Shown here piece by piece: positions 236 through 26,412 of a DNA stretch of 63,527 nt. Within the stretch, counting starts at the first letter, position 1; every line of letters begins with the position of its first letter. Made by a program: the position numbers and the translations under genes. Location: the NCBI GenBank assembly GCA_016292255.1, contig JAEEZZ010000039.1, positions 1-63,527 of the forward strand, in the 5' to 3' direction. The DNA is from Oscillospiraceae bacterium. Lineage in GTDB: Bacteria; Bacillota; Clostridia; Oscillospirales; Oscillospiraceae. Below the pieces are notes generated by a model. It made no database searches. It was not told the origin of the DNA and saw only the letters and a list, made by a program, of their open reading frames with translations.

Positions 236-258
236 GTAGGGACGGCACCCTGCCGTCC
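236..258. repeat. GTAGGG-type palindromic intergenic element
   Basis: Perfect 8-bp arms GGACGGCA (240-247) and TGCCGTCC (251-258) enclose the loop CCC and are entered by GTAGGG (236-241). The same arms recur at 22094-22112 with loop GAG, and in shortened form at 26335-26351. There is no T run, so a terminator role is not evident. Confidence 0.7.
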
Positions 259-297
259 GCATTCCCCGCACCGGAAAAAATATAAAGGAGCAATAAT

Positions 298-2205
298 ATG
301 AACGAAACGAATGTCAGGATTCAGGACGATCTCTACGAGGCCGTCAACGGGGAGTGGCTGAAAAATGCCGTGATCCCCGACGACCGTTCCACCATCGGCG
401 GTTTCTCCACCCTGGATCAGGACGTGGAGCAGATCATGATGGCGGACTTCCGTGCCTTCGCGGCAGGGGAAAAGAGCTCCGACCTTCCCCAGATGAAGTA
501 TGCCGTCGCCCTGTATAAGAAGGTGCTGGACACCGAGCGCCGGAACCGGGAGGGCATCCGCCCCGTTCTGCCGATCCTGGAGCAGCTGCGGGCCATTACC
601 ACGCCTGCCCAGCTGAATCAGCAGGCCGCCAAGCTCCTGCTGACCGGGGTTCCTCTGCCGCTGCAGATGGACGTCACCGCCGATATGCAGAACGCGGAGA
701 AGAATTCCTTCGTCGTGGCTGGGCCCGATCTGATTCTCCCGGACACCACCTACTATGCGGAGGACAACCAGCAGGGCAAGCAGCTTCTGGCGGTCTGGTC
801 TGACATGGTCACCAAGCTGCTGGCCTACACCCCGCTGACGGAGGCGGAGCAGAAGCAGTATCTGGCGGATGCTCTGGCCTTTGACGCCCTGGTTTCCAAG
901 AAGGTCAAGAGCCAGCTGGAGTGGTCGGAGTACTATAAGTGCCACAATCCCATGTCTGTGGATGAGGTTGCCGGTTACGCGTCGCCGCTGGATGTGAAGC
1001 TGATGCTGACGGAGCTCTACGGCGACCGGGCTCCCGATACCCTGATCGTCTACGATCCCAAGGCCGTGAAGGAAATGAACGGCTATTTCTCCCGGGAGAA
1101 TTTCTCCCTCTACATCCACTGGGCCTACATCCGCACGCTTTTGAAGGCCACCGCGTGCCTCTCTGAGGAGCTTGCGGCCCTGGGCAAGACCTATTCCAGA
1201 ACGCTGACGGGCGTTGCTGCCGATCCCGTTCTGGAGAAGCAGGCCTACCAGCTGGTTTCCGCCACCTATGCAGAGCCCATCGGCGTCTACTACGGCCAGA
1301 CCTACTTCGGCGAGGCCGCCAAGCAGGACGTGGTGGACATGGTCAAAAAGATCATCGAGACCTACAAGCTGCGAATGCAGAAGAACGATTTCCTGGCGGA
1401 GGAGACCAAGGCCAAGGCCATTCAGAAGCTCTCCACCATCGAGATCAAAATGGGCTACCCCGACGAGATCAAGCCCATCTGGTCCAGGCTGGTCTTCGAC
1501 GAGAACGATTCCCTGTTCGCCGCCATGCGGAGCCTGGCGGCCATCCGGACGCGGGACAGACTGGACAAGCTGCTGAAGCCCGTGGACCGCACCGAATGGC
1601 TGATGCCCGGCCACATGGTCAACGCCTGCTACAACCCCAGCTCCAACGACATCACCTTCCCGGCTGCCATCCTGCAAAAGCCCTTCTACGCCCTGGCCCA
1701 GAGCCACAGCGAGAATCTGGGCGGCATCGGCGCGGTGATCGGCCACGAGATCTCCCACGCCTTTGACAACAACGGCGCCAAGTTTGACGAGCACGGCAAT
1801 CTGAACAACTGGTGGAAGGACGAGGATTTCCAGGCCTTCCAGGCCCTCACCAAGGGCATGGTGGAGCAGTTCGAGGGTATCGAGTTCCACGGCGGCAAGG
1901 TCAGCGGCGAGCTCACCGTCAGCGAGAACATCGCCGATAACGGCGGTATGGGCGTGACCCTGGAGATCATGCACACGCTCCCGGATGCGGATTACCGGGC
2001 CTATTTCAAAAACTGGGCGCGGGTATGGTGCATGAAGGCCAAGGAGGAGTATATCCAGCTGCTTCTGAGCTGTGACGTGCACTCTCCCAACGTCCTGCGG
2101 GCGAACATGATGCCCCGGAACTTCAACGAGTGGTACGAGGCCTTCGGCGTCACCGAGCAGGATCAAATGTACATCGATCCCGAGAAGCGGATCAGTATTT
2201 GGTAA
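298..2205 (+). CDS. pepO: M13 family zinc metallopeptidase (PepO/neprilysin-like)
   Basis: This is a 635-residue protein of the neprilysin family. The zinc site HEISH lies at residues 483-487 and the third ligand motif ENIAD at 543-547, so all catalytic elements are present. The substrate-binding motif usually written NAYY reads NACY here (VNACYNPSSN). The C-terminal SPN-LRAN segment and the final Trp also match the family. No signal peptide is visible, so it is likely an intracellular oligopeptidase that degrades short peptides, as PepO does in lactic acid bacteria. The ATG at 298 follows AAAGGAG. The gene stands alone, with a hairpin after the stop. Confidence 0.9.
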   Translation: MNETNVRIQDDLYEAVNGEWLKNAVIPDDRSTIGGFSTLDQDVEQIMMADFRAFAAGEKSSDLPQMKYAVALYKKVLDTERRNREGIRPVLPILEQLRAITTPAQLNQQAAKLLLTGVPLPLQMDVTADMQNAEKNSFVVAGPDLILPDTTYYAEDNQQGKQLLAVWSDMVTKLLAYTPLTEAEQKQYLADALAFDALVSKKVKSQLEWSEYYKCHNPMSVDEVAGYASPLDVKLMLTELYGDRAPDTLIVYDPKAVKEMNGYFSRENFSLYIHWAYIRTLLKATACLSEELAALGKTYSRTLTGVAADPVLEKQAYQLVSATYAEPIGVYYGQTYFGEAAKQDVVDMVKKIIETYKLRMQKNDFLAEETKAKAIQKLSTIEIKMGYPDEIKPIWSRLVFDENDSLFAAMRSLAAIRTRDRLDKLLKPVDRTEWLMPGHMVNACYNPSSNDITFPAAILQKPFYALAQSHSENLGGIGAVIGHEISHAFDNNGAKFDEHGNLNNWWKDEDFQAFQALTKGMVEQFEGIEFHGGKVSGELTVSENIADNGGMGVTLEIMHTLPDADYRAYFKNWARVWCMKAKEEYIQLLLSCDVHSPNVLRANMMPRNFNEWYEAFGVTEQDQMYIDPEKRISIW

Positions 2206-2210
2206 ACTGC

Positions 2211-2271
2211 ATTTCAAGCAATTCAAACAGGGCCGACGCGGATCCTTCTGCGCCGGCCCTGGGCTTGAAAT
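2211..2271 (+). terminator. Extended stem-loop after the M13 peptidase gene
   Basis: Outer arms ATTTCAAGC (2211-2219) and GCTTGAAAT (2263-2271) enclose an inner stem CAGGGCCG (2228-2235) / CGGCCCTG (2254-2261). The following bases are ACGGTATTTT, a weak T tract, so this is a probable but not textbook intrinsic terminator. Confidence 0.55.
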
Positions 2272-2294
2272 ACGGTATTTTATGAATTTTTAAC

Positions 2295-2322
2295 TTGCAT
2301 ATTTTCACGGGCTTGTTATAAT
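2295..2322 (+). promoter_or_regulatory. Sigma-A type promoter for the glutaminase gene
   Basis: TTGCAT (2295-2300), 16 bp, TATAAT (2317-2322). A GAGAGAAGGGG Shine-Dalgarno lies just before the ATG at 2356. Confidence 0.7.
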
Positions 2323-2355
2323 AATGTTAGATTTCTGACAGAGAGAAGGGGTTTT

Positions 2356-3276
2356 ATGGAAGAACAGCAGGTGCGTGCGGTGATGGAAGAAGCGATGGAG
2401 ATCGGCCGCCGGCAGATCCCTCACGGCGCTGTGGCCACCTATATCCCGGAGCTGGGCAAGGCCCGCAAGGACGCGCTGGGGCTGTGTATCGCCCTACCCG
2501 ACGGAACGCTGTACAAGGCGGGGGACACCAACATCCGCTTCACGATCCAATCCATCTCCAAGGTGATCTCCCTCTGCAAGGCGCTGGAGCTGCGGGGGGC
2601 GGAGGAGGTCTTTGTCCATGTGGGCATGGAGCCCTCCGGGGAAGCCTTCAACTCCATCGTGGAGCTGGATCTGCAGGCCAACCGACCCTTCAACCCCATG
2701 ATCAATTCCGGCGCCATCGCCGTGGAGAGCACCATCATCGACTACGTTTCCTTCGAGGATATGCTGGCCTATTCCCAGCTCCTGTGCGACGATCCGGGCA
2801 TCACCCTGAACCGCCAGGTGTACCACTCGGAGATGAACTCCTGCGATCGCAACCGGGCCATCGCCTATCTGCTGAAAAGCAAGGAGATCATCACCGCCAA
2901 CGTGGACAACAGCATCGAACTCTACACCAAACTGTGTTCTCTGAACGTCACCGCGGAATCCCTTGCCAACTTTGCGCTGCTGCTTGCCAACGGCGGCATT
3001 CGCCCCAACACCGGGGAGCGGCTTCTGGCGGAGGATACAGTGCGGACGGTGCTTTCCATCATGCTCACCTGCGGGATGTACGACGGCTCCGGCCGCTTTG
3101 CCGTGGAGGTGGGCGTACCCACCAAATCCGGCGTGGGAGGCGGCTTGATGGCGTCTGTCTACGGCAAGTGCGGCATCGGCATTTTCGGCCCTTCGCTGGA
3201 TAAAAAGGGCAACTGCATCGCCGGCTGCGAGATGATGAAGCAGCTGTCCTCCAAGCTGGGCCTGCATCTGTTTTAG
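2356..3276 (+). CDS. glsA: Glutaminase A
   Basis: The 306-residue product has the full length of bacterial glutaminases of the serine beta-lactamase-like fold, which hydrolyse glutamine to glutamate and ammonia. The catalytic S-x-x-K is present as S66-I-S-K69. The family signature NPMINSGAIAV follows at about residue 114, and the C-terminal glycine-rich KSGVGGG is intact. There is no signal peptide, so it is cytoplasmic. It has its own promoter at 2295-2322 and a strong ribosome site. It probably serves nitrogen or acid-stress metabolism, as GlsA does elsewhere, though no partner transporter is adjacent. Confidence 0.95.
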   Translation: MEEQQVRAVMEEAMEIGRRQIPHGAVATYIPELGKARKDALGLCIALPDGTLYKAGDTNIRFTIQSISKVISLCKALELRGAEEVFVHVGMEPSGEAFNSIVELDLQANRPFNPMINSGAIAVESTIIDYVSFEDMLAYSQLLCDDPGITLNRQVYHSEMNSCDRNRAIAYLLKSKEIITANVDNSIELYTKLCSLNVTAESLANFALLLANGGIRPNTGERLLAEDTVRTVLSIMLTCGMYDGSGRFAVEVGVPTKSGVGGGLMASVYGKCGIGIFGPSLDKKGNCIAGCEMMKQLSSKLGLHLF

Positions 3277-3339
3277 CGGCATTTCCCGACGCGCACAGCC
3301 TCCCATTCCGGCTTTTTCGCAGATTCTCACGCTGTAAGA

Positions 3340-3368
3340 TTGACTTTTTACCCGGGATATTATATAAT
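3340..3368 (+). promoter_or_regulatory. Strong sigma-A promoter for the vWA gene
   Basis: TTGACT (3340-3345), 17 bp, TATAAT (3363-3368). Transcription would begin near 3375, leaving a GC-rich leader of about 105 nt before the ATG at 3480. I see no recognisable riboswitch in it. Confidence 0.8.
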
Positions 3369-3479
3369 ATAATTACGGATATAAGAACACCTAATAGCAA
3401 TTCGGCCCCGCGCACGGCCCTGTGCCTGTGCCTTTTCCCAAGGCTCGCGCCTTCCTGTACTAAGAAAAGAGGGTTCAAT

Positions 3480-5690
3480 ATGAGAAAACTGAGAATGATG
3501 CGCCGTCTGTTCTGCCTGCTCCTGGCTGCGGCTCTTTGCCTGACTCTGGCCGCACCCATCTACGCCGAGGATACGGCTTCGGATGACGACCTGTATGGCG
3601 ACCTGTATGCGGACGACACCGTCGCGGAGGAGACGGAGGAAGTCTCGGAGGCGGAAAGCACCGCTGCGCCGGAGACCACCGCGGTGGAGACCACGGAAGC
3701 GCCGGAGGACGAGGATGACAACGGCGTCACCGGTATGGAAAAGAGCGCCAGCATCGATAACGAAGACTTTAACCTGGTCCTGCTGATCGACCGCAGCGGC
3801 TCCATGAAGAGCACCGACCGCAGCAAGCTGGTCAAGGACGCGGCAAAAATGTTCATCGACCTCTGCGACGAGGGCGGCAATTCCCACATCGCAGTGATGA
3901 GCTTCGATACCATGGTCTACAACAGCGGCTTCATCACAGTCAGCAATGCGTACCAGCGCGAGGTGGTCAAGAACGAGATCTCCTCCATCGACTACGCTGC
4001 CGGCGGCACCGATATCGGCCAGGCTCTGCTGAGTGCCGTTCAGTTTGTGTGCGGCGAGAGCGAACCCGACCAGAAGAAAATGATCGTCCTGTTCACCGAC
4101 GGCTATACCCAGGATCTGAACGATAAAACCATCGAGGAGTCGGAATCCGAGTTGCAGCTGGCGCTGAAAACAGCAGTGGAGAACGACTGCCGGATCTTTA
4201 CCCTGGGCACCAACTATAACGGCAGTATGACCGAGAACGGCCGCAAGGCGCTGGAGGGCATCCGGGATTATCAGATCGCCAACGGCGCCACCAACTCCCC
4301 GGAGGAGCTGCTTGCCATCATCGACGCCACGGACCAGGACGGCATGAAGGTGGTCGTGGATGAATTTGAGCGCATCTACGCGACCATCGGCGAGCGGATC
4401 ATCCACGAGGGCAATCTGATCATCGACTCGCCCAATATCTCGGAAGCCAACATCATCATCTCCGCGCCGGACGGCGTTTCGGAGATCAAGATCACTGCGC
4501 CCTCCGGCAACTCCGTGTTCGTGGATCTGCACGGCAATGAGACCCATCTCGACGGCGCGAAGATCATCTACAAATCGGGCAATTCCTACCAGCTGATCAA
4601 GATCGTGGAGCCCATCGCGGAGGGCACCTGGGTCCTGAACGTCTCAGACAAGCAATCAGAACCTATTCTGAACTACACCTGGATGCTGACCACGAAGGCG
4701 GAGATCAGCATGACCCTGGAGCAAAACGGCAAGGAAAGCGTCCTGGTCATCATCCGGCCGAAAAACGTGGACGTGAACAATCTGCGGGACTTCTTCAGCT
4801 CGCTGACGGAAAAGACCGTCGTGGTCACCAAGAAGGGCTCCAAGGAAAGTCTGACGCTGGATCTGGACTACAATCTGTTGGCGGCCTCGCTGACAGCGTC
4901 CTTTCCGGCGGAACCCGGCTCGACCTATTCCGTGAAGGCGCGGGTGTCTGACGGGTATTTCACCAGAACCTGCACCGGCTCGATCAAGAGCCAGAAGGAT
5001 TGGAAGGATCCCAACGAGAAGGGCCCCGATATCGGCACGATCTACGTCTGGAATTGGTTCTCAAAGACGATAGAGCTGAGAGAGCTGGTGGACAAGGACG
5101 TCAAGGGCCTGGAGTCCATCGACGGCGCTAGGGAATTGGCTGAGTTTGAGATCAACGGCACGCGGATCAAGGTGCGGAGCGTAAACCTGGGCTCCGGAGA
5201 GATCGTGATCAAGGGCGTGATGGCGGACGGAAGCGAAGTCGAGCTTTCCGGCAAGGTGAAGGTGCTGAACCCGCTGTTCCCGCTGCTCCTGCTGGTAGCG
5301 CTGGTGGGCGTCATTGTGCTGCTGGTGTACCTCAAGCGGCAGAAGCGTTCTCTGCGGGGAAAGCTGTTCTTCAAGTTCGGCGTTTCTCTGAACGGCGAGG
5401 GGTCGTATGCCCTTCCGGAGGTTTTCGTCCCCTGCTGCCGCGTGTTCAGCCTGTATGAGCTGATCGAATCCTACCGCAGAGATACGATGAAGGACAACTG
5501 GGACGCAGTCCTGGATAAGAAGGTCCTGAACAAGAACTCTCCGTACTTCAAGGCGCTGAAAAACAGCAAATTTACCGTGTGCTCCGATGAGCTGAGCTTC
5601 GAGTTTGACGGCACCGTTTACAGACGGCACGACACAGAATTCGAATGGATCTCCGAAGACGGCTTATTGACAGTCACGTTCGTTTATTGA
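3480..5690 (+). CDS. Secreted/membrane von Willebrand factor A domain protein
   Basis: The protein has 736 residues. An N-terminal signal peptide (about 1-29, ending PIYA) is followed by an acidic, Thr/Glu-rich linker (30-85). A vWA domain follows (about 97-290) with the metal-ion adhesion site D104-R-S-G-S108 and a GGTDIG segment near 180. Next come beta-rich regions (about 300-590), one transmembrane helix (about 597-619) with a KRQKR stop-transfer end, and a cytoplasmic tail of about 115 residues. Such proteins bind ligands through Mg2+ at the cell surface, but the ligand is unknown here. The SLH carboxypeptidase starts 21 bp downstream with no terminator, so the two are probably co-transcribed. 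The tail might signal to cytoplasmic partners; that is inference. Confidence 0.85.
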   Translation: MRKLRMMRRLFCLLLAAALCLTLAAPIYAEDTASDDDLYGDLYADDTVAEETEEVSEAESTAAPETTAVETTEAPEDEDDNGVTGMEKSASIDNEDFNLVLLIDRSGSMKSTDRSKLVKDAAKMFIDLCDEGGNSHIAVMSFDTMVYNSGFITVSNAYQREVVKNEISSIDYAAGGTDIGQALLSAVQFVCGESEPDQKKMIVLFTDGYTQDLNDKTIEESESELQLALKTAVENDCRIFTLGTNYNGSMTENGRKALEGIRDYQIANGATNSPEELLAIIDATDQDGMKVVVDEFERIYATIGERIIHEGNLIIDSPNISEANIIISAPDGVSEIKITAPSGNSVFVDLHGNETHLDGAKIIYKSGNSYQLIKIVEPIAEGTWVLNVSDKQSEPILNYTWMLTTKAEISMTLEQNGKESVLVIIRPKNVDVNNLRDFFSSLTEKTVVVTKKGSKESLTLDLDYNLLAASLTASFPAEPGSTYSVKARVSDGYFTRTCTGSIKSQKDWKDPNEKGPDIGTIYVWNWFSKTIELRELVDKDVKGLESIDGARELAEFEINGTRIKVRSVNLGSGEIVIKGVMADGSEVELSGKVKVLNPLFPLLLLVALVGVIVLLVYLKRQKRSLRGKLFFKFGVSLNGEGSYALPEVFVPCCRVFSLYELIESYRRDTMKDNWDAVLDKKVLNKNSPYFKALKNSKFTVCSDELSFEFDGTVYRRHDTEFEWISEDGLLTVTFVY

Positions 5691-5711
5691 TCAAAGATTG
5701 GAGAAAACCGG

Positions 5712-7397
5712 ATGAAGAAAGGCTTTTGTATCATCCTTGTGCTACTGCTGCTTACGGCGGTGATGCCTTCAGCAGTTGCGAATGATACGTCTGTTTCTTT
5801 TGCCGACGTCCTTGCGACAGATTGGTACGCCGCAGTGGTCAGCTACGCGGCAAGCACCGGCTATGCCATCGGCGGCAACGGGTATTTCCGCCCAAACGCC
5901 GCCGTGACCAGAGGCGAGTTTACCACGATGCTCGCCCATATCCTTTGCCCGGAGGGCATTCCCGACAGTATTCCGGATTCCGGCTTCGGGGACGTCCCGC
6001 AGAGCGAGTTCTATGCCCGGCCTGTGGCCTGGGCCTATGCATCCGGCTTGGTTTCCGGCACCTCCGAGGACAGCTTTTCCCCCGAGGATAAGATCAGAAG
6101 GGAAGACATGGCGCTGATCATCCTCCGGGCCGAAGACCTTCCCGCGCTGCAGGACTATCCCTTTGTGGAGGCTGGAAGGCAGTTCTGTGACGACGACCAG
6201 ATCTCCTCCTACGCCAGGGAGGCGATCGCCACCCTGCAGCGGCAGGGCCTGCTGAGCGGCGATACCTTCGGAAGGGTAAACCCGAAGCAGAGCCTCACCC
6301 GGGCGGAGGCCGCTGCGGTGCTGTCCCATATCCAGATGTACGTCAGCGGGCACACCCACAGCTATTCTGCCGCGGAGACAGTCTCTCCCAGCTGCACGGC
6401 TTCGGGGCTGCAGTATTATCGCTGCGGCTGCGGCAGCTTTTACGGGGAATACGCCGCGCCGGCCCTGGGCCACGACTACGTCCTGGCGCAGACCGACCGG
6501 GAGACCTGGACGGAGACCTACTGCTGCTCCCGCTGCGGCGACAGCTTTTCCCAGTCTCTGCCGGGCCAGAAGCCGAAGCAGATCTATGACGGCGATTCGC
6601 TGCTCACCAACGAGGAGATCCTCAGCTATATCGACCGGCTGCAGCAGATGTACCCGGATCTGATCAGCAGCTACGTCGGCGGACTTTCTGTCTGGAAAGC
6701 GCCGATCCGGGTCGTCAGCTTGGGCAAGGGCAACAGATACATCTTCATGAACGGCAATATCCACGGGAATGAGACGGTCACCACCAACTACCTGCTGAAG
6801 GTCCTGGATACCTACGCCTACGCCTACGCCACCGAGACCACCGTCGGCGGCTATTCCATCAAGCCCCTGCTGGACTGCTTCACCATTGTAATGATCCCCT
6901 GCAGCAATCCGGACGGAAGACTGCTGGTGCTGTCCGGCTATGACACCAAAAACAACGGAAACGGCGTGAATCTGAATCGGAATTTCCCCACGAACTGGGT
7001 GTACGATTCCTCCGGCCTCTACGGCCCCAGCGCCGGCTCCGAGCCGGAAACCCAGGCGATCCTGGAGGTGCTTGGCCGGTATCCCTTTGAGCTGGTTCTG
7101 GACTGCCATACCTCCGGCAACGTGATCTATTACGCGGATTACGACTGCAGCTCGGAGCTCCGCAACAGATCCTATTCCATTGCAACAGCGCTGAGCCAGG
7201 AGAGCGGCTATCGCCTGTACTTATACGAAGCCTCTGCGGGCATGGCGAACTATGCCAGACACCCCTACGGCGTGCCCGGTCTTACCATTGAGATGTACCC
7301 CTACACCTCCGGCGTGATCGACTGCACACGCTTCTCCGAGTGGGTATGGCCCAAGCTGGACACCATGCCGGCCATCGCCATGAGCTATTTGAAGTAG
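5712..7397 (+). CDS. SLH-domain M14 zinc carboxypeptidase
   Basis: The 561-residue product has a signal peptide (1-24) and then three S-layer homology repeats (about 28-215), each with the usual F.D....W...V/A pattern, which should tie it to cell-wall polymers. A short Cys/His-rich module (about 215-285, with CGCG, CCSRCG and GHDY) follows. The M14 catalytic domain has zinc ligands H351-G-N-E354 and H466 (DCHTSG), the substrate-binding NPDGR and NLNRNFP motifs, and catalytic E527 (TIEMYP). It should cleave C-terminal residues from peptides or wall peptides outside the cell. It lies 21 bp after the vWA gene and is followed by a strong hairpin. The Cys/His module recurs in the peptidase at 60990. 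Confidence 0.9.
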   Translation: MKKGFCIILVLLLLTAVMPSAVANDTSVSFADVLATDWYAAVVSYAASTGYAIGGNGYFRPNAAVTRGEFTTMLAHILCPEGIPDSIPDSGFGDVPQSEFYARPVAWAYASGLVSGTSEDSFSPEDKIRREDMALIILRAEDLPALQDYPFVEAGRQFCDDDQISSYAREAIATLQRQGLLSGDTFGRVNPKQSLTRAEAAAVLSHIQMYVSGHTHSYSAAETVSPSCTASGLQYYRCGCGSFYGEYAAPALGHDYVLAQTDRETWTETYCCSRCGDSFSQSLPGQKPKQIYDGDSLLTNEEILSYIDRLQQMYPDLISSYVGGLSVWKAPIRVVSLGKGNRYIFMNGNIHGNETVTTNYLLKVLDTYAYAYATETTVGGYSIKPLLDCFTIVMIPCSNPDGRLLVLSGYDTKNNGNGVNLNRNFPTNWVYDSSGLYGPSAGSEPETQAILEVLGRYPFELVLDCHTSGNVIYYADYDCSSELRNRSYSIATALSQESGYRLYLYEASAGMANYARHPYGVPGLTIEMYPYTSGVIDCTRFSEWVWPKLDTMPAIAMSYLK

Positions 7398-7416
7398 AAT
7401 ATGAACAAGCAATGGC

Positions 7417-7459
7417 CCGGCAGGGGCCGGTCTGACAAGCGCGGATCGGCCCCTGCCGG
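7417..7459 (+). terminator. Hairpin after the SLH carboxypeptidase gene
   Basis: A perfect 13-bp stem CCGGCAGGGGCCG (7417-7429) / CGGCCCCTGCCGG (7447-7459) with a 17-nt loop. There is no T run, so termination may need a factor. Confidence 0.6.
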
Positions 7460-7548
7460 CTGCTTTGGCAGAGGCGCAATCCCCATATAGGATAACACAC
7501 CCCGCAAAAAGCTGAAAAATGTATAGTATCCACATTTTTCTTTACAAT

Positions 7549-7592
7549 ATTCAAGGATAATTCTTGAATTATGCCCAATCATGTGGTATAAT
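7549..7592 (+). promoter_or_regulatory. Promoter with overlapping inverted repeat (possible operator)
   Basis: TTGAAT (7564-7569), 17 bp, TATAAT (7587-7592) drives the EAL gene. The inverted repeat ATTCAAG (7549-7555) / CTTGAAT (7563-7569) overlaps the -35 box. It could bind a dimeric repressor or simply be an AT-rich coincidence. Confidence 0.6.
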
Positions 7593-7646
7593 TGTGAAAA
7601 AGATGTGTAGATTTTGCATGAAATCCCGAATACGAGGTGAGCCTGT

Positions 7647-8324
7647 ATGACGGCAACCAAAGTTTTATTCGACAACTATACCAGAATGGGCGACGTCAGT
7701 GTTGTTGCGATCTGCTGCGTCATCTTCATACTGCTTTCAACCTCCTATGTCAGCAGAAACTCCAGCTTCCGGATCTTCGCCGCCCTTGTGGGCAATCTGT
7801 TTGTTGCCGCGATCCTGAACATCGGCTATCACGATCTGCTCCTGCTGGGCAAGGCTTCCCTCAGAGCATGGATCTATATCCTTCGCCTGGTTTACGTCGT
7901 GCTGCTGTTTAACTGCTTCTTCTTGTTCTCTCTGTACACCTCGGTCGTGTCCAATCTGGAAAGAAAAAAGGCAAGGGTATTCGCCATCGCTGCCATGGTG
8001 CTGTTTTTCGTGTCGGTCGTAGCGGACATCCTCTTTTCCGTCTACCACATCGGCTTCTATATCTCGGAGGACGGCAACGTTTCTGCCGGCTTCGACATCT
8101 TCACCATTGGCTACGCTGTCTATGTCCTGTTTTTGGCTACCCAGATGTTCCGGATCCGCAAGCTGCTGTTCAAGCGGGTGATGCTCGGCTTCTTTGGCGT
8201 GATGGTACTGTCCGTTTCGATCCGGGTGGGGCAGTTTTTTCCTGGATCAGTTCTCGTTGACGACGCTGACCTTTACCCTCCCGGCCATCGCCATGCTGTA
8301 CATCATGCACTCCAATCCCTATAA
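7647..8324 (+). CDS. Membrane sensor half of a frameshifted EAL protein
   Basis: This is the N-terminal part of a c-di-GMP signalling protein. It begins at ATG 7647 behind GAGGTGAG. Six hydrophobic helices can be read within about 180 residues, as in 7TM-type sensor modules of Firmicutes GGDEF/EAL proteins. In this frame the sequence turns non-membrane-like after GQFF at about residue 198 and stops at 8324. Removing one T from the T6 run at 8235-8240 joins it smoothly to the next frame (FFLDQFSLTTLT), giving a 637-residue protein. The last 28 residues of this frame are therefore probably not native. It is a broken gene, an assembly error or a slippage site; see findings. Confidence 0.75.
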   Translation: MTATKVLFDNYTRMGDVSVVAICCVIFILLSTSYVSRNSSFRIFAALVGNLFVAAILNIGYHDLLLLGKASLRAWIYILRLVYVVLLFNCFFLFSLYTSVVSNLERKKARVFAIAAMVLFFVSVVADILFSVYHIGFYISEDGNVSAGFDIFTIGYAVYVLFLATQMFRIRKLLFKRVMLGFFGVMVLSVSIRVGQFFPGSVLVDDADLYPPGHRHAVHHALQSL

Positions 8325-9561: not shown

Positions 9562-9579
9562 CCGTCTGTACTGCTGCTT

Positions 9580-9611
9580 CGCATCCGATCCGGCTTTTCG
9601 GGTCGGGTGCG
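9580..9611 (+). terminator. Stem-loop between EAL and ABC genes
   Basis: CGCATCCGATCC (9580-9591) pairs with GGGTCGGGTGCG (9600-9611) over 12 positions, two of them G-T, around loop GGCTTTTC. It is followed by TCTGCCTGTT, so the T tract is poor. It may be a weak terminator for the EAL gene. Confidence 0.5.
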
Positions 9612-9636
9612 TCTGCCTGTTGATCCAAGGAGGAAC

Positions 9637-13691: not shown

Positions 13692-13746
13692 CGGACAGCT
13701 CCGTAATAACGCAGCAATCGAAACCCACAGAAAAGGATTGATCCCC

Positions 13747-14553: not shown

Positions 14554-14562
14554 ATCTGTAGC

Positions 14563-14579
14563 GCCGGCAATCTGCCGGC
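14563..14579. repeat. Short intergenic palindrome (GCCGGCA arms)
   Basis: GCCGGCA (14563-14569), loop ATC, TGCCGGC (14573-14579), preceded by TGTAGC. It looks like a short relative of the GTAGGG-type elements. Confidence 0.6.
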
Positions 14580-14638
14580 CTTAACCCCACATCCCACAAA
14601 AATGAACGAAAACAGAACACAAACAGGAGGAACACAGA

Positions 14639-15262: not shown

Positions 15263-15266
15263 AGAG

Positions 15267-16631: not shown

Positions 16632-16638
16632 TAAACGC

Positions 16639-16661
16639 AGGGGCGCACAGTGTGCGCCCCT
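16639..16661. repeat. Perfect 23-bp intergenic palindrome
   Basis: AGGGGCGCACA (16639-16649), centre G, TGTGCGCCCCT (16651-16661), then ACAA. The arms relate to those at 24224-24240. It sits between the convergent MATE and UvrA-like genes and could also serve as a bidirectional terminator hairpin, but has no T tract. Confidence 0.7.
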
Positions 16662-16676
16662 ACAAATTTCTGATGC

Positions 16677-18950: not shown

Positions 18951-19000
18951 CGCAAAGCTCCTCCCGGTGTATGTACAATTTGGTATGCGGCATTTCCCCC

Positions 19001-19029
19001 ATTCTACACCAGAACCCGCAACAATGCAA
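19001..19029 (-). promoter_or_regulatory. Promoter for the UvrA-like gene
   Basis: Read on the minus strand: TTGCAT (19029-19024), 17 bp, TAGAAT (19006-19001). It is divergent from the HAD-gene promoter at 19072. Confidence 0.6.
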
Positions 19030-19071
19030 GCGTTGGTACACTGATCTACATAAAATCACGGCGGAATGCCC

Positions 19072-19100
19072 TTGTATTGCGTCGTGAAAGAGAATATAAT
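19072..19100 (+). promoter_or_regulatory. Promoter for the HAD phosphatase gene
   Basis: TTGTAT (19072-19077), 17 bp, TATAAT (19095-19100). The ribosome site TTGGAGG follows before ATG 19133. Confidence 0.65.
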
Positions 19101-19132
19101 AAAACCGAACAATGTTTGGAGGTATACATCCC

Positions 19133-19831
19133 ATGATAAATACGATCCTTTGGGACGTGGACGGGACGCTGCTGGATTTTGACGCCGCGGAACGGGCTGC
19201 GATCACCACCCTGTTTGCAGAATTCCGCCTGGGAGAATGCACGGAGCAGATGCTTGCCCGGTATTCCGTCATTAACGTCGGCTTCTGGCAGCGGCTGGAA
19301 CGGGGAGAGCTGACCAAGCCCCAGATCCTGGTGGGCCGGTTTCAGCAGTTTTTCAGTGAGTTCTGCCTTGACGTAAGCCTGGCCCCGGCCTTCAATGAGC
19401 GCTATCAGCTGACCCTGGGGGATACCATCGTCCTTCGGGACGACTGTCTGGAGCTGATCCGATCCCTGAAAGGAAAGCTGCGGCAGTACGTGGTATCCAA
19501 CGGAACCATAGCGGCCCAGACCAAGAAGCTGGAACGCTCCGGCCTGGGCGCGCTGATGGACGGGGTCTTTCTGTCCGAACAGATCGGCGTGGAAAAGCCC
19601 AATCCTGCCTATTTTGAACGGGTGTTTGAAGTGATCCGCCCGGAGGCCCTGTCCTCGGTGCTGATCGTGGGAGACTCCCTCACCAGCGACATCCGGGGCG
19701 GCATGAACGCGGGGATCCGGACCTGCTGGTATAACCCCAAGCACCAGCCCCTCCCGGCGGGCTACCGGGTGGATCATACGATCTCCGACCTGCGGCAGAT
19801 CCCGGCGGTGATCGCAGCCTCCTGTCGGTAA
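19133..19831 (+). CDS. HAD family hydrolase (YjjG-like nucleotidase)
   Basis: The 232-residue haloacid-dehalogenase phosphatase has the nucleophile motif DVDGTLLDFD at the N-terminus, a Ser/Thr motif (VVSNG), a conserved Lys (EKPNPAYF) and acidic motif GDSLTSD. The DFDAAE start and the overall length resemble YjjG/YfnB-type nucleoside 5'-phosphatases, which clear non-canonical pyrimidine nucleotides; this is family inference. ATG 19133 follows TTGGAGG by 11 bp. An in-frame ATG at 19112 lies upstream of that ribosome site and is unlikely to be used. It is transcribed divergently from the UvrA-like gene. Confidence 0.88.
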   Translation: MINTILWDVDGTLLDFDAAERAAITTLFAEFRLGECTEQMLARYSVINVGFWQRLERGELTKPQILVGRFQQFFSEFCLDVSLAPAFNERYQLTLGDTIVLRDDCLELIRSLKGKLRQYVVSNGTIAAQTKKLERSGLGALMDGVFLSEQIGVEKPNPAYFERVFEVIRPEALSSVLIVGDSLTSDIRGGMNAGIRTCWYNPKHQPLPAGYRVDHTISDLRQIPAVIAASCR

Positions 19832-19840
19832 GGTTTTCCG

Positions 19841-21829
19841 TCAGTTTTTCCGGCGACGGTCATTTCCGCCGCCCATGCCGCCCATGGTGCTGAGCTGGAG
19901 CCCGGAGGCGTCCACTTTGGCGGCGCTGTCCTGCTGGTCGGTCTGGGTGGCCAGATCTCCGTCCAACTGCTTGCGGATGCTCTGGGCCCGGAGCAGGCAG
20001 AACTGCTTCAGGGTCTGCACGCCTTGGTCGAACTCCTCCACGGAGTAGAACGCGGTGGGATCCTTTTCCACATAGGGGCGCAGCAGCTCCGTCAGCTGAT
20101 CCAGCTCCGCCTCGAAGACGCCGCTTTCAAAATAGCCGCTGATCAGCTCCTCCATGGTGTCGTGATACTGTTCCAGATACGCTTCGTCGGCGGGGATCCA
20201 GGCCCACATGGGGCGGTTTTCCTCCGTGGTGCCGGAAAGGGGCGTGTCAATGCCGGTGTTGAGCAGGGAAGCGGCGTTGCTGCCGCCCTCTGCTTCTCCA
20301 AAGCCCCCGCCCATGCCGCCGCTGAAGCCGCCGAAGGCCAGATTGTAGTCCCAAGGCAGCATGGAGAGCTTTCCGTCGCGCTCATAGAGATAGTAGTTGT
20401 GCAGTATACTGCCGGTGTAGCTGTCGTAGTTCAGAACGAAGTTGTGGGCCGCGAAGTAGCGGATCACCTCGTCGGTGTCCAGCGCCTCCGCCGCGTTGCC
20501 CTCCGAGAGGGCCTTCAACGCGGCAATCACCCGTTCCGCTGCCCCCTCGTCCATGTCGGTCTCGTCGTTGTCGAAGATGTCGGCGTAACTGGAGGTGTCG
20601 TCGTCCGTGTAGCGCAGATCCGCGCCCTTGGCGTTGCTGCCGAAGCCCATGCCCCCGGGGCCGCCGGGCATTTGACCGGGGGTAAAGCCGTCCGGAGGCG
20701 TTCCCGGGGTCGAGCCGTCGGGCATTTGTCCGGGAGTGAAGCCCTCCGGGGGCGTTCCGGGGTTAGAGCCGTCGGGAGCTGTTCCGGGGTTAGAGCCGTC
20801 GGGCGTTGTAGAGCTTGTACCGCTGCCCGGGGTGGGACTTGCCACCCCGTCCGGCGGGGTCTGTGTCCCGTTTTCGCCGTTCTGCCCGGGGAAGCCGGGG
20901 TTCTGCCCGTTTCCTCCGGGGAAGCCGCCCTGTCCCTGCCCGTTGCCGCCGGGGAAGCCGCCTTGACCGGCCTGTCCGGAGAAGTTACCCTGTCCGGGGA
21001 AGTCGCCTTGACCTTCACCATTCCCGCCGGGGCCGCCTTTTCCGTCGGCCATCTGATCCAGCTCCTCGGTCTCCGGCTTGTAGAGCACGCCTTCGCCGTC
21101 CTGGGTTCGCTCGAGCCAGGCCTCACTGACGTCCTCGATGGCGATGTAGAGGCCGTGATCCTCGCCGTTGATCCGCAGCCAGACGAAGCTGACCAGGGGA
21201 GCGTCCACTCCCAGCTGCCGGAACAGCCTGTAGCTGAGCCAGTCCTTCAGATAGGTGCTGTCGGCGTAGAGGTTGTTGAGGCTGAGCTTGTTCAGCCCGT
21301 GGTAGCTCTGGCTCTTGTTGTATTTGCCGAAGTTGAGCTTGAAGCTGTAACGGTCACTGTCCTGGTCGCTTGCCACGGAGGAGAGGCTGGTGTTGCCCTT
21401 GGTGGCAAAGGATACCTCCTCCAGGGTCTCCCCGTCGATGGTGACGCTGGTTTTGTATTTCGTCTTTTCCAGAGGGTTCGCCCGCAGATCGTCCCAGTCC
21501 TCCTGGGAGATGGTGACGTCGATGCTGTGGACGCGGTCAATGCTGAACAGGCCGTTGTAGACGCTGTCCGCGTCCTGCCCACTCCGGGTAGAGGACTGCC
21601 CGGCCTGGGTCGTGTCTGGTGCGTTTTGGGCCGTGTTTTCCGTCACCTGGCCGGACGCTTCGCTTTCGCCCTGGGCCGGATCGGAGCCTGCCGCTTCGCT
21701 GTTCCGGGCGCTCCGGTTCGGGTTGTCGCCCTGTCCCCCATTGTCGGAGCCCTTTCCGCAGGCAGTCAGAGACAGCAGCAGCGTGAGGATCAGACAGGCA
21801 GCCAGCAGCCGCCGATTGTTTCGTTTCAT
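19841..21829 (-). CDS. CotH kinase family lipoprotein with Gly/Pro-rich repeats
   Basis: The protein has 662 residues. A lipoprotein signal (LLLSLTAC) predicts membrane anchoring outside the cell. A CotH-type region follows (KLSLNNLYAD...LKDWLSYRLFRQLG; later LSMLPWDYNLAFGGF), as in bacterial spore-coat kinase CotH and its secreted relatives. Between these lie about 130 low-complexity residues made of GQGGFPGGNG-like and TPPDGFTPGQMPDGS-like units. CotH in Bacillus phosphorylates coat proteins on Ser; activity outside the cell needs an ATP source, so catalysis here is uncertain. I start at 21829 because GGAGGG lies 7 bp upstream; an in-frame ATG at 21844 precedes that site. Confidence 0.85.
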   Translation of the reverse strand: MKRNNRRLLAACLILTLLLSLTACGKGSDNGGQGDNPNRSARNSEAAGSDPAQGESEASGQVTENTAQNAPDTTQAGQSSTRSGQDADSVYNGLFSIDRVHSIDVTISQEDWDDLRANPLEKTKYKTSVTIDGETLEEVSFATKGNTSLSSVASDQDSDRYSFKLNFGKYNKSQSYHGLNKLSLNNLYADSTYLKDWLSYRLFRQLGVDAPLVSFVWLRINGEDHGLYIAIEDVSEAWLERTQDGEGVLYKPETEELDQMADGKGGPGGNGEGQGDFPGQGNFSGQAGQGGFPGGNGQGQGGFPGGNGQNPGFPGQNGENGTQTPPDGVASPTPGSGTSSTTPDGSNPGTAPDGSNPGTPPEGFTPGQMPDGSTPGTPPDGFTPGQMPGGPGGMGFGSNAKGADLRYTDDDTSSYADIFDNDETDMDEGAAERVIAALKALSEGNAAEALDTDEVIRYFAAHNFVLNYDSYTGSILHNYYLYERDGKLSMLPWDYNLAFGGFSGGMGGGFGEAEGGSNAASLLNTGIDTPLSGTTEENRPMWAWIPADEAYLEQYHDTMEELISGYFESGVFEAELDQLTELLRPYVEKDPTAFYSVEEFDQGVQTLKQFCLLRAQSIRKQLDGDLATQTDQQDSAAKVDASGLQLSTMGGMGGGNDRRRKN

Positions 21830-21864
21830 GGTAATCCCTCCCATTTCGCTTTTCTGGGCCTATC

Positions 21865-21893
21865 ATAATACGGCAACCTTAGGGATACCTTAA
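21865..21893 (-). promoter_or_regulatory. Possible promoter for the CotH gene
   Basis: Minus strand: TTAAGG (21893-21888), 17 bp, TATTAT (21870-21865). The -35 box is poor. Confidence 0.35.
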
Positions 21894-21902
21894 TCAGAGC
21901 CC

Positions 21903-22112
21903 GTAGGGGGCGGCGCCATCGACGCCCCGGTCCCCGTTCGCACAGAGTCCGTAGGGAGCGATGCCCACATCGCTCCTTTTACCCGTCTGTACAACGCCCC
22001 GAGGACGGATGTGGGCATCCGGCGCTACAGTAGGGTGCGTCAGGGAAATGGCCGGCTAATAGGCGGCGCTACAGTAGGGTGCGTTGGGAACGCGGACGGC
22101 AGAGTGCCGTCC
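21903..22112. repeat. Cluster of GTAGGG-type palindromes downstream of groEL
   Basis: This gene-free gap between the CotH start and the groEL stop (21830-22235) holds four palindromes. They are GGGGCG/CGCCCC (21907-21928), GGAGCGATG-CCCA-CATCGCTCC (21955-21976), CGGATG-TGGG-CATCCG (22006-22021) and GGACGGCA-GAG-TGCCGTCC (22094-22112). A 20-bp direct repeat GGCGCTACAGTAGGGTGCGT occurs at 22021-22040 and 22065-22084. No open frame here has coding character. Confidence 0.75.
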
Positions 22113-22128
22113 CTACGGGCGTATAACG

Positions 22129-22161
22129 AAAACCACACCGCTGAACGGATCAACGGTGTGG
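22129..22161 (-). terminator. groESL terminator
   Basis: Read on the minus strand, an 8-bp stem CCACACCG (22161-22154) / CGGTGTGG (22140-22133) is followed by TTTTCG. It lies about 75 bp after the groEL stop. Confidence 0.7.
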
Positions 22162-22172
22162 CTTCTTTTATG

Positions 22173-22232
22173 ACAGTTTACAGTTTCAAGTCACTTATAA
22201 CTTGTTACCTATTACCTATTACCTATTACTTG
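22173..22232. repeat. 7-bp tandem arrays after groEL
   Basis: TTACCTA is repeated three times plus one variant (22205-22232), ending three bases from the groEL stop. Read with groEL it is TAGGTAA. A second 7-mer, ACAGTTT x2, lies at 22173-22186. Confidence 0.75.
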
Positions 22233-22235
22233 TCA

Positions 22236-23888
<1,653 letters not shown>

Positions 23889-23899
23889 TCAGCCTCCTG

Positions 23900-24184
23900 T
23901 TATTCTACGATAGCCAGAATGTCGCTCTGGCGGACGATGGAATAGTCAACGCCGTCCAGCTTGACCTCGGTGCCGGCGTACTTGGCCACGACGACCTTAT
24001 TGCCGGGCTTGACGACCATGGCGACCTCTTTGCCGTCCACGATCCCGCCGGGGCCGACAGCGACCACTTCGGAGATAACGGGCTTCTCCTTGTTGGCGGT
24101 GGAGAGGATGATACCGGACTTGGTGGTTTCTTCGGCCTCCGTTGCTTTCAGCAGCACACGGTCAGCCAAGGGCTTTAACTTCAT
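23900..24184 (-). CDS. groS: Co-chaperonin GroES (10 kDa)
   Basis: The 94-residue protein begins MKLKPLADRVLLK and contains the mobile loop (EETTKSGIILS) that binds GroEL and the roof loop GPGG. It caps the GroEL ring during folding. It is the first gene of the groES-groEL operon, preceded by AAGGAGGC on the minus strand and a CIRCE-controlled strong promoter, so heat-shock regulation by HrcA is expected. Confidence 0.99.
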   Translation of the reverse strand: MKLKPLADRVLLKATEAEETTKSGIILSTANKEKPVISEVVAVGPGGIVDGKEVAMVVKPGNKVVVAKYAGTEVKLDGVDYSIVRQSDILAIVE

Positions 24185-24223
24185 AGGAATGCCTCCTTAA
24201 AATTATTTACGAGTTTCAGTAGC

Positions 24224-24240
24224 GGCGCACAGCGTGCGCC
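24224..24240. repeat. Palindromic element in the groES leader
   Basis: GGCGCAC (24224-24230), AGC, GTGCGCC (24234-24240), next to CAGTAGC. It is a variant of the element at 16639. It lies in the groES 5' leader, between CIRCE and the start codon. Confidence 0.65.
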
Positions 24241-24262
24241 ACGGGAAAGTGCCGGGAAACGC

Positions 24263-24301
24263 AATAGCTTAGCACTCTGCATTTCTGAGTGCTAAGCTAT
24301 T
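24263..24301 (-). promoter_or_regulatory. CIRCE operator (HrcA site) of groESL
   Basis: TTAGCACTC (24269-24277), 9-nt spacer, GAGTGCTAA (24287-24295) is an exact match to the CIRCE consensus. The symmetry extends outward (AATAGC / GCTATT) to 15-bp arms. It directly follows the -10 box. Confidence 0.97.
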
Positions 24302-24326
24302 ATATCATGTTTGTTGCATTTGTCAA
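24299..24326 (-). promoter_or_regulatory. groESL promoter
   Basis: Minus strand: TTGACA (24326-24321), 16 bp, TATAAT (24304-24299). Both boxes are consensus. Confidence 0.9.
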
Positions 24327-24398
24327 CTGTTCTTTTGTGAATTTTTTGTTTCATGGAACAGCGTGGGGCAGAGCGTCCCCTACGGGGGAGGGGGGTGC

Positions 24399-24446
24399 GG
24401 AGCGATGTGGGCATCGCTCCCTACGGGGACGAGTTATGCTCGCCCC
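24399..24446. repeat. Two palindromes between groES and the ABC exporter
   Basis: GGAGCGATG-TGGG-CATCGCTCC (24399-24420) followed by CTAC is the inverted copy of the element at 21955. GGGGACGAG-TTATG-CTCGCCCC (24425-24446) runs up to the last base of the exporter stop codon. They may act as its 3' hairpins. Confidence 0.7.
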
Positions 24447-26287
24447 TAGGGCTGCTTTGCAGATTCGATCTCCAGGATGGTGCGGAACTGGGTCTCGTAC
24501 AGCTCCCGGTAGACGCCGTTTTGGGTGAGGAGGCTTTCGTGGGTGCCGGATTCGGCGATTTTGCCGTTTTGCACCACCAGGATCCGGTCGGCCTTGAGGA
24601 TGGTGGAAAGGCGGTGGGCGATGACGATGCTGGTCCGACCTTGCATCAGGTGCTCCAGAGCCTCCTGGATGGCGTTCTCCGAGATGGAATCCAAGGCGGA
24701 GGTGGCCTCGTCCAGGATCAGAATGCTGGGATCCTTCAAAATCACCCGGGCGATAGACAGCCGCTGCTTCTCGCCGCCGGAGAGCTTCAGCCCCCGGTTG
24801 CCCACCAGGGTCTCATAGCCCTCGGGCTGGGCGGCGATATAGCTGTGGATGTTGGCGATTTTACAGGCGTTTTCCAGCTCCTCGTCTGTGGCGTCCGGCT
24901 TGGCGTAGAGCAGATTCTCCCGGATGGTGCCGTTGAAGAGATAGCTCTCCTGGGTCACCATTCCGATGTTGGAGCGCAGGTATTTGAGATCCATATCCCG
25001 CACGTCCACGCCGCCTACCGTCACCCGGCCGCCCTGCACGTCGTAGAGCCGCGGAATCAGATTCACCACCGTGGACTTGCCGGAGCCGGATGGCCCCACG
25101 ATGGCGTACATCTTCCCGGCGGGGACTGTGAAGTCAATGTCGGTCAGCAGAGGCTTTTCCGGGTCGTAGGAGAAGGCCACGTGCTCGCAGCGGATATCGG
25201 CGTGCTTCATATCGGGCTTCTTCCCGTTGTCCTTGCAGACGATGGGGTTCTCCATGTCGAAGTAGTCGAAGATCCGGGTGAACAGGGCCAGGGAACGGGT
25301 GAAATCCACCTGGATGTTCAGCAGACTCTGCACCGGCCGGTAGAGCCGGTTGATCAGAGCTACCGTGGCGGTGATGGTGCCCACGGTGAGGCTGGTGTCC
25401 GATTTGGCGATGATCAGCCAGCCTCCTGCAAAGTAGATCAGCAGGGGCCCCAGCTGGGTAAACATTCCCATGACCACGCCGAACCACTTGCCGGAGCGCT
25501 GCTCCTTGAGGTGCAGCCTGGTGAGCTCCTCGTTAACCCCCACAAAGCGGGCGTATTCCAGCTCCTCCCGGGCAAAGAGCTTCACCAGCAGGGAGCCGCT
25601 GACGGACAGGGTCTCGTTGATCAGCTGGTTCATCTCGTCGTTTTTGGCCTGGCTCTGGCTCAGCAGCTTCCAGCGGGTATGGCCCACGCTGCGGGTGGGG
25701 AGGATCAGAAGCGGAATGACCACCATCCCCACCAGGGCCAGCTGCCAGCTCATGGTGAACAGGGCAATCAGGGAGGTCACCACCGTGGCCACATTGCTGA
25801 CGATGCTGGACAGGGTGCCGGAGATCACGGAGCTGACCCCGGAGATGTCGGTGTTCATGCGGGTAATGATGTCGCCCTGCCGCTCCGAGGTGAAGAAGGC
25901 GTGGGGCATATGCTGGAGGTGGTCGTACATCTGGTTCTTCATGTCGAAGATGATGCGCTGGGAGATCCAGGCGTTGATGTAGCTCTCCAGCACGCCGATG
26001 ACCTGGGAGACTGTGAGGGTGCCGAAGGCCGCCAGCAGCAGCTGGATCAGCAGCTTCATATTTTTCCCCACCAGGGCTTCGTCCACGATGCGCCCGGTGA
26101 TGATGGAGGGCAGCAGTCCCACCGTGGCGGAGAGCAGGATGGCAAGAAATACCAGAACAAACTGCAGCCAATAGGGCTTCAGATAGGAAAGGATCCGCAC
26201 CAGAAGCGCCTTGCTGAGCTTCGGCTTGTGTTCCTTTTCCTCGTCGGTGAGAAAGCCGCGGGGGCCGAATCCGCCGGGCATAGCCAT
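24446..26287 (-). CDS. ABC exporter, fused permease and ATPase
   Basis: The 613-residue half-transporter has six membrane helices in residues about 30-330 and a C-terminal ATPase. The ATPase carries Walker A GPSGSGKST, signature LSGGEKQR, Walker B LILDEATSALD and switch IAHR. It belongs to the MsbA/LmrA-type lipid and multidrug exporters and should work as a homodimer, because no partner half-transporter is adjacent. A strong ribosome site (AGGAGGTG) precedes the ATG at 26287. The N-terminus is Gly/Pro-rich (MPGGFGPRG), a common form in Clostridia. Substrate unknown. Confidence 0.93.
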   Translation of the reverse strand: MAMPGGFGPRGFLTDEEKEHKPKLSKALLVRILSYLKPYWLQFVLVFLAILLSATVGLLPSIITGRIVDEALVGKNMKLLIQLLLAAFGTLTVSQVIGVLESYINAWISQRIIFDMKNQMYDHLQHMPHAFFTSERQGDIITRMNTDISGVSSVISGTLSSIVSNVATVVTSLIALFTMSWQLALVGMVVIPLLILPTRSVGHTRWKLLSQSQAKNDEMNQLINETLSVSGSLLVKLFAREELEYARFVGVNEELTRLHLKEQRSGKWFGVVMGMFTQLGPLLIYFAGGWLIIAKSDTSLTVGTITATVALINRLYRPVQSLLNIQVDFTRSLALFTRIFDYFDMENPIVCKDNGKKPDMKHADIRCEHVAFSYDPEKPLLTDIDFTVPAGKMYAIVGPSGSGKSTVVNLIPRLYDVQGGRVTVGGVDVRDMDLKYLRSNIGMVTQESYLFNGTIRENLLYAKPDATDEELENACKIANIHSYIAAQPEGYETLVGNRGLKLSGGEKQRLSIARVILKDPSILILDEATSALDSISENAIQEALEHLMQGRTSIVIAHRLSTILKADRILVVQNGKIAESGTHESLLTQNGVYRELYETQFRTILEIESAKQP

Positions 26288-26334
26288 GGGAGCACCTCCT
26301 GTTCTGATCGGGTTCGGAGTTCAAAGCGCGCAGA

Positions 26335-26351
26335 GACGGCGCCCTGCCGTC
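26335..26351. repeat. Short palindrome upstream of the ABC exporter
   Basis: GACGGC (26335-26340), GCCCT, GCCGTC (26346-26351). A degenerate copy of the GGACGGCA element. Confidence 0.55.
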
Positions 26352-26412
26352 CGTTTGTGCGTCCGTGGCTTTATCATATCACAGCGAAATTTGTTTGTAA
26401 ATTGAAAATAGC

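Follow-up and report, generated by a model that had tools for sequence, protein, structure and literature searches.

Repetitive extragenic palindromic (REP) elements carrying a GTAG tag have been reported from Proteobacteria, Cyanobacteria, Chloroflexi, and the Planctomycetes-Verrucomicrobia-Chlamydiae group (PMC3733652). In gammaproteobacteria, their pairing and coevolution with REP-associated tyrosine transposases (RAYTs), with several families per genome, have been described (PMC2817692, PMC3686654). The TnpAREP subclass 2.4, whose REPs have a foot of three G-C pairs or a double foot, is abundant in Cyanobacteria and Bacteroidetes, with a scattered occurrence in other groups (PMC6006769). 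For RAYT groups 2 and 3, recognition has been studied with systematic evolution of ligands by exponential enrichment (SELEX) and mutants; how group 3 reads perfect palindromes had been described as an open question, to which SELEX then gave a partial answer (PMC8266576). Here, a series of short palindromes was analyzed in a 63,527-nt stretch of DNA from an Oscillospiraceae bacterium of the Clostridia (contig JAEEZZ010000039.1 of assembly GCA_016292255.1, positions 1 to 63,527), referred to as the window. With a probability of about 95%, these palindromes are GTAG-tagged REP elements of a genome that encodes at least seven RAYTs and holds seven REP families private to them.

The original prediction, made from the window sequence alone, had listed 11 intergenic palindromes with shared GTAGGG or CCCTAC ends and interchangeable arms, and had likened them to RAYT-mobilised elements. 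All 11 were present when read directly in the sequence, and two further GTAG hairpins were found on the minus strand, at 22051-22072 and, in a decayed state, at 24365-24383. REPs of the GTAG super-family are hairpins of 20-40 nt with GTAG at their 5' foot, and this tag was observed at nine of the 11 listed sites. It was extended to GTAGGG at six of them and read GTAGC at 14563, 22006, and 24224. The two deviating tags, CTAG at 24425 and GCAG at 26335, both look decayed. The tag lay 0-1 base from the hairpin except at 22006, where three bases separate it from a 6-bp stem. Most hairpins were tagged on one side with a single tag. The double-tag form GTAGGG...CCCTAC was not enriched, with two places compared to four for a reversed control. 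Six of the hairpins, folded as DNA, were stable, and only 0-3 of 200 shuffled sequences folded equally well. A search of Rfam at gathering thresholds returned one tRNA and nothing else.

The excess over random sequence was measured on strong hairpins, defined by at least seven perfect pairs, a loop of 2-5 nt, and a tag 0-1 nt away. Seven of the 29 strong hairpins in the window carried GTAG, whereas 100 first-order Markov simulations gave 0.11 on average and never more than one. In another 446 kb of the genome there were 94 GTAG hairpins compared to 0-2 in five simulations; three RAYT contigs were excluded from this sample and one (C108, L022) was kept, so that the 94 include the array of that RAYT. 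GTAG was the commonest N-free tag in the 446 kb, where the median tag occurred about seven times, and the total of 1,935 hairpins there is inflated by masked N runs, 1,563 of them having the tag NNNN. Pattern matches for three REP types numbered 180, 35, and 68 in the genome, while the reversed control gave none for each. High copy number, as in the 180 copies of one type, and a location mostly outside genes are likewise traits of the REP super-family. A coding-like context was found for seven of 131 strong GTAG hairpins compared to 202 of 290 random positions, in a test that scored 240 of 300 control positions in long open reading frames (ORFs) as coding. A cruder ORF caller placed 66 GTAG-tagged hairpins within ORFs and 56 outside, and the coding test suggests that many of these ORFs are not genes. 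The predicted intergenic placement was upheld in general; in the window, the CTAG tag of the element at 24425-24449 contains a stop codon.

The proposed search for a RAYT was carried out genome-wide. Three genes were identified with the Pfam Y1_Tnp model, and a profile built from these three recovered seven RAYT genes, none of which is on the contig of the window; the genome is a draft, 86% complete, and further RAYTs may be missing from it. The best NCBIfam match for all seven was the REP-associated tyrosine transposase (E-values of 1e-15 to 1e-19), at scores of 58-70 bits, below the curated cut-off of 80 for NF047646. The best solved-structure match of the seven-RAYT profile was the E. coli TnpAREP 4er8 (E-value 2e-11). 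An NHxH motif, a Q following W or F, and a D, an R, and a Y were invariant; PMC6006769 names these positions as catalytic or in contact with GTAG. Deviations at contact positions were a W to F change in locus L051 and an H to R change in L049. The motifs NH[IFV]H and WQ were each found in six of the seven and YIxNNP in four; as these are motif counts and not a tree with reference members, no subclass is claimed. RAYT matches also occurred in 17 of 23 members of the genus (E-values up to 1e-10) and 44 of 120 of the family (up to 1e-3, some of them weak). For the order and the class, matches at 1e-25 and 1e-30 were present in 53 of 295 and 58 of 391 members, respectively. The RAYT flank of one family genome (G021, L134) recurs in a record named Oscillospiraceae (L058), which points to a Clostridia-type lineage.

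Hairpin type followed the neighboring RAYT. Within 600 bp of the seven genes, 42 of 42 hairpins agreed with the rest of their locus in the 4-nt arm apex, which was a different one at each of the seven loci (GAGC, AAGC, GGCC, GGCA, GGCT, GGCG, and GATG). In addition, an identical hairpin type was present on both flanks of every one of the seven RAYTs. Because the hairpins at each RAYT share one apex that is different in all seven, the differing arms represent separate REP families and not free exchange; arm, loop, and RAYT go together, and the arms are not interchangeable as originally proposed. The diversity of arms, which had been judged unusual, is real and is accounted for by the coexistence of at least seven RAYT-REP families, and genomes with multiple families are known in other bacteria. 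Among the types in the window, GGACGGCA was assigned to L049, GGGGCGGCG to L051, and GGGGCGAG to L046, while GCCGGCA and the hairpin at 22051 were L050-like and the GATG/CCCA class was L052-like. For the GGCGCAC type, no RAYT was found in this 86% complete genome, while one is present in three sister species. At L049, the REPs form arrays at positions 16-242 and 791-1095 of the locus, on opposite sides of the RAYT gene, which repeat every 34 and 47 bp.

The pairing extended beyond this genome. A GTAG hairpin was detected at 45 of 48 RAYT loci of the genus (those of 52 rows that were long enough or were fetched), compared to 30 of 300 stretches drawn at random from the own genome. The remaining three genus RAYTs (L304, L305, and L306) showed by eye longer, bulged GTAG hairpins that the finder had missed, which constitute a further REP architecture. 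Co-inheritance was evaluated from 210 loci, for which the named-genome part was limited to 80. Sufficient profile coverage was available for 196, of which 189 were distinct; a GTAG hairpin lay no more than 600 bp away in 97 of these (on both sides in 55). One very long stem was dropped, leaving 96 RAYT-REP pairs. Near-identical hairpins, at a distance of up to 0.15, were found in 40 of 49 RAYT pairs with at least 60% identity, and their share fell with RAYT identity to 19% (50-60%), 4% (40-50%), and 1.7% (30-40%). The overall Spearman correlation of RAYT identity with hairpin distance was -0.20, and none of 2,000 permutations was as extreme. Two RAYTs of the Flavobacteriaceae type had GTTG instead of GTAG before their hairpins, with GGACAGGTC/GC/GACCTGTCC at L097 and GGACAGCTC/GC/GAGCTGTCC at L120, and the guide tetranucleotide of these RAYTs may be different.

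In relatives with flank identities of 77-94%, the REP sites either stood empty or differed. For example, the region 24353-24470, which holds three hairpins and spans 112-116 bp between anchors, was REP-free in G403, G400, G396, and G415, with 11, 26, 48, and 72 bp, respectively. For the cluster at 21845-22235, both flanks could be anchored in two relatives, G403 and G396, and both lack it. The REP at 24219 had a changed tag in G403 and was altered in G396, and no such hairpin was present in five other relatives. At 14554-14638, the upstream gene differed in the relatives examined, so occupancy is not comparable. Among the 23 genus members, the GGACGGCW type was counted 180 times in the own genome and 235 times in G414, the two in which its RAYT was found, and at most 87 times elsewhere (p 0.011 on density). 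The three REP types summed had fewer copies in the six genomes without a RAYT match (p 0.015). In these comparisons, the presence of a cognate RAYT was assigned by us from the flanks, in incomplete genomes.

Several observations weigh against the explanation by REPs and RAYTs. When the range was extended to 900 bp, one hairpin of another type appeared at L050. Some flanks in sister species were mixed, with at least four of 13 hairpins at L190 belonging to another type. Outside the genus, the finder detected a GTAG hairpin at 57 of 148 RAYTs, and in a later set of new RAYTs at 35 of 86. Lastly, copy number tracked the cognate RAYT at p < 0.05 in only one of three types, the others giving 0.15 and 0.054. 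The tag, the intergenic bias, the copy number, the seven RAYTs with their own hairpin types, and the empty sites in relatives support the REP interpretation of the original prediction. Under this interpretation, each REP would be a short non-autonomous single-strand DNA element composed of a GTAG tag and a hairpin, which is presumably recognized and processed by a RAYT, a HuH/tyrosine transposase related to IS200/IS605, and would be copied or moved to new intergenic sites. Cleavage and joining of single-stranded REPs have been reported for E. coli TnpAREP (PMC8266576), and by analogy the RAYTs of this group may spread their REPs in the same manner.

The 96 pairs were further examined for residues that vary with the hairpin. 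All alignment columns were scanned for a link to hairpin distance after residualisation on overall identity; positions 110 and 123 (L047 numbering) ranked highest, and positions 106, 107, 111, and 114 scored high as well. By feature, residue 110 was associated with the loop-closing base and residue 107 with loop length, and residue 123 was associated both with the base in third position behind GTAG and with the closing base; further associations linked residue 69 to the first loop base and residue 99 to loop length. In 3-nt loops, G110 occurred with a closing C in 30 of 30 cases and R110 with a non-C in 20 of 21, and across all loops the proportions were 31 of 33 and 29 of 32, respectively. 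K or R at 123 accompanied a G as the third base in 67 of 73 cases, and other residues accompanied a non-G in 21 of 23. The alignment to 4er8 pairs position 110 with E. coli K82, a residue of the DNA-binding helix that touches the bulged C27 in the co-crystal (PMC8266576), and position 123, which follows the WQ motif, with P96, adjoining the GTAG-contact residue Q95.

Predictions were written before a new set of loci was opened, comprising 86 RAYTs, of which 35 had hairpins (repeated or two-sided in 15 of the 35 only). Among the 35, 31 were less than 70% identical to the training set, and the counts that follow are for these 31. G110 occurred with C in eight of eight cases and R110 with a non-C in four of five (one of two in 3-nt loops; Fisher p 6e-5). 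K/R123 occurred with G in 21 of 24 cases and other residues with a non-G in five of six (Fisher p 0.002). Q107 was found with a 3-nt loop in eight of nine cases, and S, G, Y, T, or A107 with a 4-nt loop in 16 of 19. A finer rule, in which R110 was paired with A or T in 3-nt loops and with G in 4-nt loops (17 of 21 and eight of 11 in training), was dropped after it failed in the new loci, where the 3-nt loops had one G and one C and the 4-nt loops had G in one of five; only "not C" was retained.

These associations suggest a small modular code, which we consider somewhat better than an even bet, whereby residue 110 would read the loop-closing pair, 123 the lower stem, and 107 the loop length of the hairpin. 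In this putative code, Gly at 110 would correspond to C-G, Arg to anything but C-G, and Met mostly to T-A; Lys or Arg at 123 would correspond to a G third after GTAG and other residues to another base, while Gln at 107 would correspond to a 3-nt loop. The code is a correlation between sequences, and the alignment to 4er8 is what places the three residues as putative hairpin contacts. If the code is true, the coexisting REPtrons would stay private through differences at 107, 110, and 123, a proposal that shares the odds of the code itself. The associations could instead reflect shared ancestry and not recognition, since a RAYT and its hairpin are inherited together and the row-shuffling null ignores the tree. 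When a tree was built from 129 training and new rows with the tested columns removed, however, path-disjoint pairs pointed in the predicted direction at 10:0 (of 14), 11:0 (of 15), and 7:0 (of 15) for the three associations. Only two to four independent pairs lay on well-supported branches, too few for a decision. The three associations also ranked first, second, and third among 382 majority-residue column-feature tests, the third being tied with residue 99, while the best p of 0.002 fails correction for 382 tests in a scan that contains the training rows. With residue 110 aligned to an E. coli residue in contact with a bulged base of the stem, and with advance predictions that mostly held in RAYTs less than 70% identical, shared ancestry is a tentative explanation of the code, less likely than recognition.

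A different reading of the hairpins themselves takes them as RNA elements, such as intrinsic terminators or stabilisers of mRNA 3' ends, that are selected for pairing and merely have RAYTs in the same genome. Strong stems do lie between genes, such roles have been credited to REPs elsewhere (PMC3733652, PMC6006769), and terminator-like hairpins were recognized by eye in two sister species at the REP positions 21845-22235 and 16632-16676, the latter in G403 and G396 in place of the REP. At these two positions, terminators may have given way to REPs or been taken over by them. An RNA role by itself, however, does not account for a one-sided GTAG tag, a hairpin type that follows the neighboring RAYT, arrays that surround RAYT genes, one copy upstream of groES, or one that overlaps a stop codon, and this reading is very improbable. 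Slightly weaker still is the proposal that the hairpins are ends of ordinary IS200/IS605 insertion sequences, to whose transposases RAYTs are related, or a miniature inverted-repeat transposable element of another transposase family, as the seven genes include no near-identical copies (37-45% identity to L046 and up to about 59% between the others) and the IS200 model scores at most 27.7 bits on them compared to its cut-off of 55.

The individual REPs of the window represent several of these families. The element at 236-258 (plus strand) is of type GGACGGCA/CCC, and its cognate RAYT L049 is on contig C108; the same RAYT is cognate to GGACGGCA/CTC at 22094-22116 (minus), and a decayed GGACGGCA element with the tag GCAG lies at 26330-26352 (plus). 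At 14558-14579 (plus), C.GCCGGCA/ATC matches a hairpin beside RAYT L206 of a sister species, and the own RAYT L050 (C103) has C.GCGGGCT. The GGCGCAC hairpins, which adjoin the sister-species RAYTs L208, L209, and L199, are represented by GGGCGCAC/ACT at 16640-16663 (minus) and by C.GGCGCAC/AGC at 24219-24240 (plus). Within the cluster, GGGGCGGCG/CCAT/CGACGCCCC at 21903-21928 (plus), with one internal mismatch, has its cognate RAYT L051 on C71. It is followed by two members of the GATG/CCCA class, GGAGCGATG/CCCA at 21951-21976 (plus), for which the nearest own RAYT is L052, and GTAGCGCCGGATG/CCCA/CATCCGTCC at 22003-22028 (minus), which has a 6-bp stem. The added element at 22051-22072 is GTAGCGCCGCCT/ATT/AGCCGGC, with one mismatched pair. 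A second GGAGCGATG/CCCA copy is at 24399-24424 (minus), where sister species have no REP; the exact arm GGAGCGATG adjoins no RAYT among the loci examined. Adjacent to it, the decayed element at 24425-24449 (minus), tagged CTAG and of type GGGGCGAGC, has its cognate RAYT L046 on C132. The TAG stop codon of an ABC-transporter gene (24446-24448) falls inside this CTAG tag, and insertion of the REP may have been the source of the end of the gene. The REP at 24219-24240 lies between the groES start and an inverted repeat at 24263-24301, which has 15 perfect bp, contains TTAGCACTC-N9-GAGTGCTAA, and is presumably the CIRCE operator of HrcA.

Systems of this type are known (Nunvar 2010; Di Nocera 2013; Quentin 2018), and the present one is unusually crowded. 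In the open-licence literature, no REP-RAYT pairs in Firmicutes or Clostridia and no residue code for this group were found, nor was anything on how group 4 recognizes perfect palindromes. The available portions of PMC2817692 and PMC3686654 contain no residue-to-base comparison, and those of PMC6006769 no group 4 residue code. The present genome adds a lineage of the Clostridia type, and its seven RAYT-REP pairs, which stay distinct side by side, are a natural experiment on specificity. If the code is true, much of the cognate hairpin of a RAYT would be predictable from its protein sequence and REP families could be assigned to RAYTs; if it is confirmed, the recognition question would be testable with a few point mutants.

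Among described systems, E. coli TnpAREP of group 2 shares most of its GTAG-contact residues with the present RAYTs, as its W94, Q95, E100, H101, and R104 align with W/F121, Q122, D127, H/R128, and R131 (L047 numbering), while its REPs require a bulged stem (PMC8266576) and the present stems are mostly unbulged. The REPs and RAYTs of Stenotrophomonas and Pseudomonas are alike in having several families per genome, inverted cognate REP flanks, and agreeing RAYT and REP trees, but belong to another RAYT group with GTAG or GTGG heads (Nunvar 2010, PMC2817692; 2013, PMC3686654). Subclass 2.4, which is RAYT group 4 of Bertels 2017 as cited in Quentin 2018 (PMC6006769), is alike in the GTAG tag, the G-C stem foot, the hairpins around the RAYT, and a REP family of its own for each RAYT, and its motifs NH[IFV]H, WQ, and YIxNNP are close to those found here. 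It differs in having 1.5 intragenomic copies on average compared to seven RAYTs in one Clostridia-type genome, and the interest of the present system lies in this number of private pairs and in the code that they suggest.

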